Source: Stigmatella aurantiaca DW4/3-1
Lineage (GTDB): Bacteria; Myxococcota; Myxococcia; Myxococcales; Myxococcaceae
Length of the DNA: 64,000 nt
Direction: 5' to 3'
NCBI RefSeq assembly: GCF_000165485.1
Contig: NC_014623.1
Location: 3,987,501-4,051,500, forward strand
Shown: positions 14,870 to 55,676 of the stretch, piece by piece
Numbering within the stretch: position 1 is the stretch's first letter
Layout: every line of letters begins with the position of its first letter
The notes under the pieces: generated by a model
What the model was told of the DNA's origin: nothing
The model's input: only the letters and a program-made list of their open reading frames with translations
The model's database searches: none
Made by a program: the position numbers and the translations under genes

Positions 14870-16492
14870 CTACCGCGAGCGGCGGCGTCGCCAGAGTCCG
14901 GCGAGCGCCCAGGCGCCCAAGGGGAACAGGGCCCCGAGGGGAACCGTGGAGCACCCGCCTGCCTGGGCATCGGCGTCGCCCTCTCCTCCCACGGAGGAGC
15001 CTGGCACCCCCGTGGAGGGCCCCGTCGTGGGCGGCTGGGGGATGCCAGGGGAGGGGATGCTCGTTCCCGGGGGCGCGACGGTCACCTGGGCCGTGGCGGT
15101 CTGCTGGGCCGTGCCCGAGGTGGCCGTCGCCGTCACCGTGTACTGCCCTTCCTTCGGGTAGACGTGGGACACCGCGTCGCCCTCGCCCGTCTCCTCGTCT
15201 CCAAAGTCCCAGCGCACCGTGGCGCCCATCAGGGAGGACTCGGCGCGGAAGAGGGCCTGGTGGGGGGCGACGCCTCGCTCGCCTTCGACGATCAAGGTCA
15301 GCGGGTGGGGGGTGGGCTTCTCCTCGGGGGCGAGCTGCTTGGTCAGGGTCAGGGAGTCCGCGGTGGCGCCCGAGGGCGTCACGAGCCGGGCGGTGAGGGT
15401 CCCGTCGATGACCTCGACGTCCAGGAAGCCATAGTCCTTGTTGTTCCGGACGGCGCTCCACGCGGGCTTCGAGACGGGGAAGTCCCGCAGGTTGGCGCCA
15501 CCGCTGCCCACCACCAAGTAGGGGATCCCCGTGCCGGAGGGGGCCACCGCGTCGCCCTTCATCGCGTAGGCGCGCTCGTAGTGGTGGTCATGTCCGGTGA
15601 GGACGAGGTCCACCCCATACTTCTCGAAGAGGGGGCTGAACTCCCGGCGCATGAGGAGCTGGGAGCCGTGGTCTCCGCTCGACCAGGGGGGGTGGTGGAA
15701 GAAGACGATCTTCCACGGCGCCTTGCTGGCGGCGAGATCCTGCTCTGCCCAGGCCTTCTGCGCCGCCAGGGTGCAGCGGTCCTTCGAGGCCAGGCCAATG
15801 GCGCAGTTCGAGTCCAGCCCCACGAAGTGCACATGCCCCCAGTCGAACGAGTAGTAGCGCTCGCCCCCACTGGGGCTGGTGGGCAGGTAGAGGTTGTCCA
15901 GGTAGGGCTGGGCTTGATCCGTGACGTACTCGTGGTTGCCCGCCACCGCGAAGAACGGAACCTCCATCAGCAGGTCCTTCATGGGGACGAACATGTTGTT
16001 CTGGATCTGCTCCTCGGTGCCGGACTCGTAGGCGACATCCCCCATCCCGATGAAGAGTTCAGGCCGGTAGGAGAGCATGCTGGCGGCCACTTCCTTCTGG
16101 CGGGAGCCGCCCGTGCCGAAGTCCCCCATGGCGGCGAAGTGCACCCGGCGCGTGCCGGGGACGGGCGCGGTGTGGAAGCGCTTGGGGCTCGAACTCGCGC
16201 CGCACGTCTCCACCACGTAGGTGTACTCGGCCCCGGGCGACAGGCCATTGAGCACCACGGCGTGGATGCGCCCACTGTCCGTCGAGCGGGCCGTCTGGTT
16301 CGTGGCCCCTCCGGTGCCGTAGCGTACCTCCGGGGTGCAGTTGGCGTTCACGCGGAACGCGACGGTGGCTGTGTCGGGTCCCACCCGTTGCAGGTAGGGG
16401 GAGCGGGTGAGCGTTGCCGCGTGCGCCACCCCCGTGGTCAGCACGAGAGCGGCAGCCAGGGCGCCGAGCGCAGGGACCTTCGCCAAATGCAT
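14870..16492 (-). CDS. Exported purple-acid-phosphatase-like metallophosphoesterase with PKD domain and MYXO-CTERM-like tail
   Basis: 540 residues with signal peptide (LAAALVLTTGVAHAAT), an N-terminal fibronectin-like domain (about 28-110), then a metallophosphoesterase core: GDFGTGG, GMGDVAYESG, GNHEY, HHPPW and GHDHHYER supply the two-metal site. A PKD domain follows (TVRWDFGDEETGEGD to YTVTATATSG), then a Pro/Gly/Thr linker and a C-terminus of GGCSTVP, hydrophobic helix and RRRRSR. This Cys-helix-Arg ending is the MYXO-CTERM pattern used for sorting to the myxobacterial cell surface. The enzyme probably hydrolyses phosphate esters outside the cell. It is flanked by terminator-like hairpins on both sides, so it is likely monocistronic. 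Confidence 0.9.
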   Translation of the reverse strand: MHLAKVPALGALAAALVLTTGVAHAATLTRSPYLQRVGPDTATVAFRVNANCTPEVRYGTGGATNQTARSTDSGRIHAVVLNGLSPGAEYTYVVETCGASSSPKRFHTAPVPGTRRVHFAAMGDFGTGGSRQKEVAASMLSYRPELFIGMGDVAYESGTEEQIQNNMFVPMKDLLMEVPFFAVAGNHEYVTDQAQPYLDNLYLPTSPSGGERYYSFDWGHVHFVGLDSNCAIGLASKDRCTLAAQKAWAEQDLAASKAPWKIVFFHHPPWSSGDHGSQLLMRREFSPLFEKYGVDLVLTGHDHHYERAYAMKGDAVAPSGTGIPYLVVGSGGANLRDFPVSKPAWSAVRNNKDYGFLDVEVIDGTLTARLVTPSGATADSLTLTKQLAPEEKPTPHPLTLIVEGERGVAPHQALFRAESSLMGATVRWDFGDEETGEGDAVSHVYPKEGQYTVTATATSGTAQQTATAQVTVAPPGTSIPSPGIPQPPTTGPSTGVPGSSVGGEGDADAQAGGCSTVPLGALFPLGAWALAGLWRRRRSR

Positions 16493-54606: not shown

Positions 54607-54692
54607 TCAGGGGAGGAGTCGAGGCATACCCAGGAGATGGGCCCTCCGATCCGGTTTATTGAATTTTCTCTCAGCACTGTTTTCAACGTCTG

Positions 54693-54706
54693 GGGGGAAT
54701 TCCCCC
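54693..54706. repeat. Perfect 14-base palindrome GGGGGAATTCCCCC
   Basis: Located 87 bases after the lipoprotein stop and 41 bases before the metallophosphoesterase start, inside an AT-richer stretch. It has no loop, so it is more likely a protein-binding site than a terminator. Confidence 0.4.
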
Positions 54707-54746
54707 TCGACAGCGGAAAGGGGGCACGGCACTTTCAAGGCTCACA

Positions 54747-55676
54747 ATGCCCACACAAACTCTCCTCATCGCTGGTGTGGGAGACATCCATGGACGCTTC
54801 CACCGGGTGGAAGAATGGATGGATGGGTTGGGCAAGGCCCGCGGCCGGCCGGTGGACATGGTGTTGGCGGTGGGGGATGTGGAAGCGTTCCGGCGCGCGG
54901 ATGATCAGCGCCGCAAGATGACCAAGCGCCTCATGCCGGCCGAGTTCGCCGAGTACGCGGATGGGCAGCGGCAGATGAAGCGGCCGCTGTACTTCATCGG
55001 CGGCAACAACGAGGACTTCGAGGCGCTGCACGACGCGCAGGATGGCTTGGAGCTGGCCCCTCAGGTGTATTACCTGGGGCGGGCAGGGATCCAGACGTTG
55101 CAGGGGTTGCGCGTGGCGTACCTCTCGGGCATCCACGCGCCGCGCTTCTACGAGCAGCCGCTCAAGCGGCCCCGGGCGCTCGATACGGCGAAGCAGGCGG
55201 GGTATTTCCGCGGGCCCGAGGTGGAGCGGGTCATGCACGTGCGGGACGTGGACATCCTGCTGGTGCACGAGTGGCCGCGCGGCATCGTTCAGCGGGCCCG
55301 GGACGAGAATGTTCCCACCGCGCGGGCCCTGCCGTCGTACTGGATTGGCAATCCCATCACCCGAAGGCTGGCGGACACGCTGCGGCCCAAGTGGATGTTG
55401 TGTGGCCATTCCCACAAGGGGTTCGCGGTGTCGCTGGGCGGAGAGGGCGGGCGGCCGGTGACGCGCATTGCCTGTCTGGATCAGGCGACGCGGCCCGACG
55501 AGGCGGTGTTCTGGCTGGAGTTCGAGGATCGCGAGCCGGTGCGCGGCGGCTGGGGCATCTCCGGAGAGGTGGCCTGGCAGTCCGGGGCCCCGTGGAACCT
55601 CCAGTCGCTTCCCGTGACGGGGCCGCCCATGGCCTCCGCGCAGCCGGAAGGGGACGAGGATCGGGAGATGGGGTAG
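54747..55676 (+). CDS. Metallophosphoesterase resembling lariat-debranching enzyme Dbr1
   Basis: 309 residues. The two-metal site is visible: GDIHG (Asp13, His15), VGDVEAF (Asp44), GGNNED (Asn87) with Asn88 where GNHE normally has the catalytic His, VHEWP (His174) and GHSH (His221, His223). Beyond these general motifs, the spacing and wording follow eukaryotic Dbr1: YFIGGNNED, QVYYLGRAGIQTLQGLRVA, LSGIHA, DVDILLVHEWPRGI and LADTLRPKWMLCGHSHKGFA align with Dbr1's FIGGNHE, YYLGLAGV, ISGIFK, LSHDWP and AHLH stretches. Dbr1 cuts 2'-5' branch points in lariat RNA. Whether this protein does is inference. AAGG lies 6 bases before the ATG. Soluble, no signal peptide. Confidence 0.82.
   Translation: MPTQTLLIAGVGDIHGRFHRVEEWMDGLGKARGRPVDMVLAVGDVEAFRRADDQRRKMTKRLMPAEFAEYADGQRQMKRPLYFIGGNNEDFEALHDAQDGLELAPQVYYLGRAGIQTLQGLRVAYLSGIHAPRFYEQPLKRPRALDTAKQAGYFRGPEVERVMHVRDVDILLVHEWPRGIVQRARDENVPTARALPSYWIGNPITRRLADTLRPKWMLCGHSHKGFAVSLGGEGGRPVTRIACLDQATRPDEAVFWLEFEDREPVRGGWGISGEVAWQSGAPWNLQSLPVTGPPMASAQPEGDEDREMG

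Follow-up and report, generated by a model that had tools for sequence, protein, structure and literature searches.

The gene at 54747-55676 of the window (the whole 64,000-nt stretch of Stigmatella aurantiaca DW4/3-1 DNA analyzed here) encodes a protein with a genuine family relationship to the debranching enzyme Dbr1 and its relative CWF19L1/Drn1. It is a bacterial branch of the Dbr1 family and not a proven debranching enzyme. As judged from sequence comparison and modeling, the best reading is that of a two-metal phosphoesterase or nucleic-acid binder from a prokaryotic Dbr1/Drn1 lineage. The fuller form of this reading, to which we give about even chances, is that the protein belongs to the metallophosphoesterase clade from which eukaryotes obtained Dbr1 and Drn1/CWF19L1, and that it acts as a predicted two-metal hydrolase, expressed from its own promoter and unconnected to retrons.

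The open reading frame was confirmed on the forward strand, where it runs from the ATG at 54747 to the stop codon at 55674-55676, and the host genome consists of one contig of 10,260,756 bp. The 309-aa product contains the motifs GDIHG (D13, H15), GD (D44), GGNNED (N87, N88) and YYLGRAG, together with LSGI, LVHEWPRGI (H174) and LRPKW..CGHSH (H221, H223). In Pfam it matches the calcineurin-like phosphoesterase family PF00149 (7e-12; 46.5 bits against a curated cut-off of 21.5), and no NCBIfam family is matched either by this protein or by its GNH paralog (see below). The features are listed here with residues mapped onto the Dbr1 of Entamoeba histolytica (EhDbr1), the numbering of which was checked against the literature (PMC4176325).

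54707..54735, forward strand: probable own promoter, TCGACA (54707-54712), 17 bp, CACTTT (54730-54735), based on conservation
54747..55676, forward strand: gene for the 309-aa Dbr1/CWF19L1-like metallophosphoesterase, based on PF00149, the Entamoeba Dbr1 match, orthologs and the AF2 model
54783..54791, forward strand: motif I, D13-I-H15, with D13 standing where Dbr1 has Cys14 (alignment of 20 sequences, residue table)
54876..54878, forward strand: D44, bridging metal ligand, EhDbr1 Asp45 (alignment, residue table)
55005..55010, forward strand: metal ligand N87, EhDbr1 Asn90, and N88, which replaces the general-acid His91 (alignment, residue table, motif search)
55125..55211, forward strand: residues 127-155, equivalent of the lariat-recognition loop, ending in R155, EhDbr1 Arg158 (residue table, invariant QAGYFR)
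55266..55268, forward strand: H174, metal ligand, EhDbr1 His180 (alignment, residue table)
55407..55415, forward strand: H221-S-H223, EhDbr1 His230 and His232 (alignment, residue table)

Orthologs with 49–91% identity were recovered from 70 other myxobacterial genomes by a search of a same-phylum sample. The ortholog of one complete genome is broken over two frames (G118:C1:5535189-5536045) by a frameshift or a sequencing error. Furthermore, a record titled Comamonas sp. KCTC 72670 (L018) has a 73% identical copy of the gene within the gene order of myxobacteria, and is therefore probably a mislabeled Myxococcus. A phage collection contained no relative of the protein, and a plasmid search returned nothing beyond distant haloarchaeal and actinobacterial phosphoesterases. 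The haloarchaeal plasmid proteins (L081 2905-3543, L082 2905-3537) likewise read AGNNED, and the copy from Halorubrum has Asn for a metal His (VNESPHG vs THEAPHG). A weak PADLOC match to PDC-S10 (4e-4, 17.6 bits) was judged to reflect general fold similarity. The window also includes a second calcineurin-like phosphoesterase at 15578-16072 on the reverse strand (L085); no other protein of the genome matches PF00149 as strongly.

A reading made from the sequence only had claimed that the resemblance to Dbr1 extends beyond the metal motifs, and this is borne out by the presence of the motifs it named and by database searches. The similarity is much greater than chance would produce: a single-sequence phmmer search of 177,635 PDB sequences gives Entamoeba Dbr1 at 3.3e-21 and CWF19L1/Drn1 at 3e-8, while a family profile finds Entamoeba Dbr1 at 1.7e-26, CWF19L1 at 8e-11 and nothing else up to an E-value of 0.01. 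Conversely, the best bacterial matches of CWF19L1 are members of the window family, and those of Dbr1 are the GNH paralogs. The structure prediction and the tree that the same reading had proposed as checks both side with the kinship. The AlphaFold (AF2) model (pLDDT 86, pTM 0.87) lies nearest to Dbr1 (Z 28.7–29.1, 2.3–2.8 Å over about 250 residues, 2.3 Å for the best chain) and then to CWF19L1 (Z 24.1 and 22.0), followed by aq_1956 (Z 18.0) and MPPED2 (Z 14.4); Foldseek returns the same ranking, its E-values jumping from 5e-12 to 1.5e-7. In a maximum-likelihood tree, for which, as for the searches, the eukaryotic sequences were PDB chains (human CWF19L1 from 8ro2), the window family forms a clade with the GNH paralogs, G222, G305, Dbr1 and CWF19L1 (support 98/94). 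A second tree to which ordinary phosphoesterases of the same genome were added retains the clade at 97/95, with two haloarchaeal proteins inside it. Within the clade, AU tests reject neither a union of the window family with CWF19L1 (p 0.54) nor one of the GNH paralogs with Dbr1 (p 0.42).

The residues D13, H15, D44, N87, H174, H221 and H223 are invariant across 20 aligned sequences, the others of which are 52–75% identical to the window protein, and this invariance of the catalytic set argues for a working metal center. Among the ligands of both Dbr1 metal pockets, all except Cys14 are kept (H15, D44, N87, H174, H221, H223). The replacement of the GNH histidine by Asn88, which the sequence-only reading had singled out, is genuine: the codons read 'aacaac' at 55005-55010, a motif search finds GNNE in 61 of 62 ortholog loci, the locus missed by the search (L071) reads GGNNEDF, and Asn88 is present in every ortholog examined. 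Human CWF19L1 has an Asn here too, and the residue is no chance peculiarity. In Dbr1, this position is held by His91, the general acid that donates a proton to the 2'-O. The loop from S127 to R155 comprises 29 aa, exactly the length of the lariat-recognition loop of EhDbr1 (residues 130-158), and R155, which falls at the invariant Arg158 of EhDbr1, is part of the invariant block QAGYFR. The EhDbr1 loop residues that contact RNA (Lys134, Phe136, Phe155, His156) correspond to A131, R133, G152 and Y153, and Arg61 takes the place of Tyr64, the Dbr1 residue that stacks against the base at the branch. Since the RNA-touching loop residues and Tyr64 are mostly not conserved, the nucleic-acid substrate is itself something that we infer.

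The TCGACA box upstream of the gene is invariant in 15 of 15 orthologs, at -35 to -43, and in 13 of the 15 a CAnnnT follows after 17–18 bp. Among orthologs this TCGACA-N17-CAnnnT element sits 9–13 bp before the ATG, the CACTTT box in the window ending 11 bp before it, and this spacing suggests a very short mRNA leader. A scan with the plain sigma-70 consensus did not call the TCGACA/CACTTT element. Just ahead of the promoter lies a near-palindrome, GGGGGGAATTCCCCC, at 54690-54712, whose GGAATTC core also occurs in the closest relatives (L001, L002). The order uvrA, EamA, anchorD (choice-of-anchor-D), Dbr1-like gene, PAP2, addB, where the names of the neighbors are our own reading of the open reading frames, is largely kept in Myxococcaceae and Archangiaceae. 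The conserved gene order and the shared upstream element therefore point to a chromosomal gene that is old and probably expressed on its own.

Three other readings of the protein have to be weighed. It could be a phosphodiesterase or phosphatase of the ordinary bacterial kind that resembles Dbr1 only through the metallophosphoesterase fold common to both, as would fit the Pfam matches, which are limited to the general families PF00149 and PF12850. However, the structures of aq_1956, MPPED2, Rv0805, Mre11 and LpxH fall far behind Dbr1 and CWF19L1 in fold; CWF19L1 and EhDbr1 used as queries recover the window family, but 19 ordinary phosphoesterases of the genome yielded no more than one match, at chance level; and the AU test rejects (p 0.007) a union of the window family with KGNH, the closest of the ordinary bacterial groups. 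This reading is already largely refuted and very improbable. A Drn1-like role, that of a mostly non-catalytic binder which, in the manner of H91A Dbr1 or CWF19L1, holds branched or structured nucleic acid and leaves it uncut, perhaps for the GNH paralog or another nuclease, would agree with residues 85-130, which are nearer to CWF19L1 (E 3e-4) than to Dbr1 (0.64) and include the Asn-Asn pair, YLGR-GI and YLSG, as well as with CWF19L1 finding its best bacterial matches here and with the joint clade that the AU test leaves standing. Drn1 alone has no debranching activity (PMC10470207). Such a role appears rather unlikely, given that all metal ligands are kept and invariant, that the loop has its full length, that the C-terminal domains of CWF19L1 are absent, and that the host genome contains no GNH paralog to serve as a partner.

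The third reading is that of a true debranching enzyme that opens the 2',5' linkages at the branch points of msDNA or of group II intron lariats, with two metals replacing the Cys/His chemistry. Clade, metal ligands and loop length fit this reading, and because the host genome has one type XIII retron reverse transcriptase (C1:197145-198485) and six group II intron reverse transcriptase matches, branched molecules are available in the host. DBR1 can debranch retron DNA in vitro (PMC8989520), so that this chemistry lies within reach of the fold. Of the two species that yielded the first msDNA, S. aurantiaca is one, and its msDNA is isolated as a branched RNA-DNA molecule (PMC6868368; reportedly also Furuichi 1987, cited in PMC8989520), from which it follows that no enzyme removes the branch wholesale in this organism. 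Nevertheless, Cys14 and the C-terminal domain, both needed by Entamoeba Dbr1 (PMC4176325), are missing, as is His91, and the Dbr1 entries crystallized with branched RNA (5k77, 5k78) show the motif GGNAE, in which this histidine is replaced by Ala. The function is doubted further because the His91 change is also found in the non-catalytic CWF19L1. At the genus level, the gene co-occurs with type XIII retrons (9/4/3/10, Fisher p 0.047) in a count that is uncorrected for phylogeny, covers this retron type and no other, and includes many draft genomes; co-occurrence with group II introns is not significant (p 0.24). In five genomes that have the gene, no type XIII retron and no group II reverse transcriptase match was found, and 17 genomes have a type XIII retron and lack the gene. 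We consider a debranching enzyme clearly unlikely.

The proposal of the sequence-only reading that the protein is a Dbr1-like debranching enzyme thus holds for the kinship, in sequence, fold and tree, but the function has evidence against it, with Cys14, His91 and the C-terminal domain absent. Its suggested role on msDNA or group II lariats did not find support: the gene, at C1:4042247, lies megabases from the retron, co-occurrence with retrons and group II introns is loose, and a link of the gene to msDNA is not supported. In another locus (L080), a strong hairpin at 2839-2934 lies beside a type XIII retron reverse transcriptase and is probably the retron msd stem; Rfam made weak calls on it, to unrelated microRNA families.

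Under the preferred reading of a two-metal phosphoesterase, the protein would be an active hydrolase whose target is a phosphoester in a nucleotide, in RNA or in DNA. The phosphate would be attacked by a water bound to metal, with no proton donor of the His91 type, a reaction that would suit a good leaving group, such as that of a phosphomonoester or an activated linkage, over the routine cutting of 2',5' branches. The loop would probably still help to hold a nucleic-acid arm, and the gene would have a housekeeping role on the chromosome in the Myxococcus/Stigmatella lineage, being expressed from a conserved promoter of its own and outside any retron. Against this, a protein with Asn88 could merely bind its ligand.

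Many relatives of the same family (Myxococcus and others) carry a GNH paralog, which was not found in the window's own genome. Five such loci (L065-L069; for example L065 5947-6774, reverse strand) and 30 more (L115-L144) all read GNHE (35/35), and their neighborhoods have no common partner gene except in two close genomes. The paralog belongs to the same clade, is about 37% identical to the window protein and shares with it the motif I Asp and the long loop, but unlike the window protein it keeps the general-acid His91 and Tyr64. Its match to Dbr1 (6e-31) is stronger than that of the window protein, and it is the better candidate for a bacterial debranching enzyme, as far as sequence can tell. 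The family is rare outside the myxobacterial group: a sample of 386 genomes around G222, drawn mostly from elsewhere in the bacteria, gave four matches, two of which were new (G305, 1e-36; G326, 1e-23). Dbr1-like proteins with GNHD occur in two other bacterial groups (L146 of G222; L150 4990-5817 of G305) and contain Dbr1-like stretches such as PAKYRRVKSFPAYWSGEKE.

Eukaryotic Dbr1 has changed the ancestral motif I Asp to Cys. Because the GNN and GNH groups of bacteria both keep the Asp, a late acquisition from a eukaryotic Dbr1 is unlikely for them. The Cys14 site and the lariat-recognition loop are described in the literature as unique to Dbr1, and a literature search of incomplete coverage found no paper on a bacterial Dbr1 or placing kin of Dbr1/Drn1 in bacteria. 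A small bacterial clade with the loop, the ancestral Asp, and both GNH and GNN versions would show the fold as it was before eukaryotic Dbr1 gained its Cys. The two versions are also two candidates for the first bacterial enzyme to open 2',5' branches, and they come from the very group of bacteria that yielded the first msDNA. It is conceivable, though we regard it as quite improbable, that a catalytic Dbr1 and a Drn1 lacking the His had already diverged before eukaryotes arose, that a myxobacterial GNH and GNN pair jointly handles 2',5'-branched msDNA or lariats, and that eukaryotes inherited such a pair.

Among the named systems, the KGNH metallophosphoesterases of other Myxococcota (L058-L063) share the general fold and the metal motifs with the window protein, but lie outside the Dbr1 clade, keep GNH and have a shorter loop of 25 aa. 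EhDbr1 (4pef/5k73/5k78) is about 27% identical over 226 aa (fold Z 29) and has in common with the window protein the ligands D45, N90, H180, H230 and H232 together with H16 (EhDbr1 numbering), the 29-aa loop with Arg158 and the HxWPxGI motif. In contrast, Cys14, His91 and Tyr64 of EhDbr1 are Asp13, Asn88 and Arg61 in the window protein, and most of the RNA-contacting loop residues are replaced. The motif I Cys, in place of Asp, has been called invariant and essential (PMC4176325; PMC10470207), and in EhDbr1 the C14S exchange, deletion of the loop or deletion of the C-terminal domain each abolishes debranching (PMC4176325). This four-helix C-terminal domain, which packs on the loop, is missing from the window protein: the AF2 model has no helix of at least 4 residues past residue 253, and the structural match to Dbr1 stops at 263-265. 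The Pfam family of the Dbr1 C-terminal domain (PF05011) has no match in the own genome, but it gave none in the controls either and so says nothing on this point. CWF19L1/Drn1 (8ro2, 8ro1), a non-catalytic Dbr1 paralog whose human form has no debranching activity, matches the fold at Z 24. Human CWF19L1 (GANNQE..ELAENITYLGRKGI..IVYLSG) and the window protein both have Asn-Asn at the GNH site, YLGR-GI and YLSG, and the C. elegans counterpart reads GPAN at that site. The window protein, 309 aa in all, has no CWF19 C-terminal domains, its Pfam matches being to metallophosphoesterases only. Furthermore, CWF19L1 has lost most of the metal ligands and has a loop of 16 aa, whereas the window protein retains all ligands and a loop of 29 aa.
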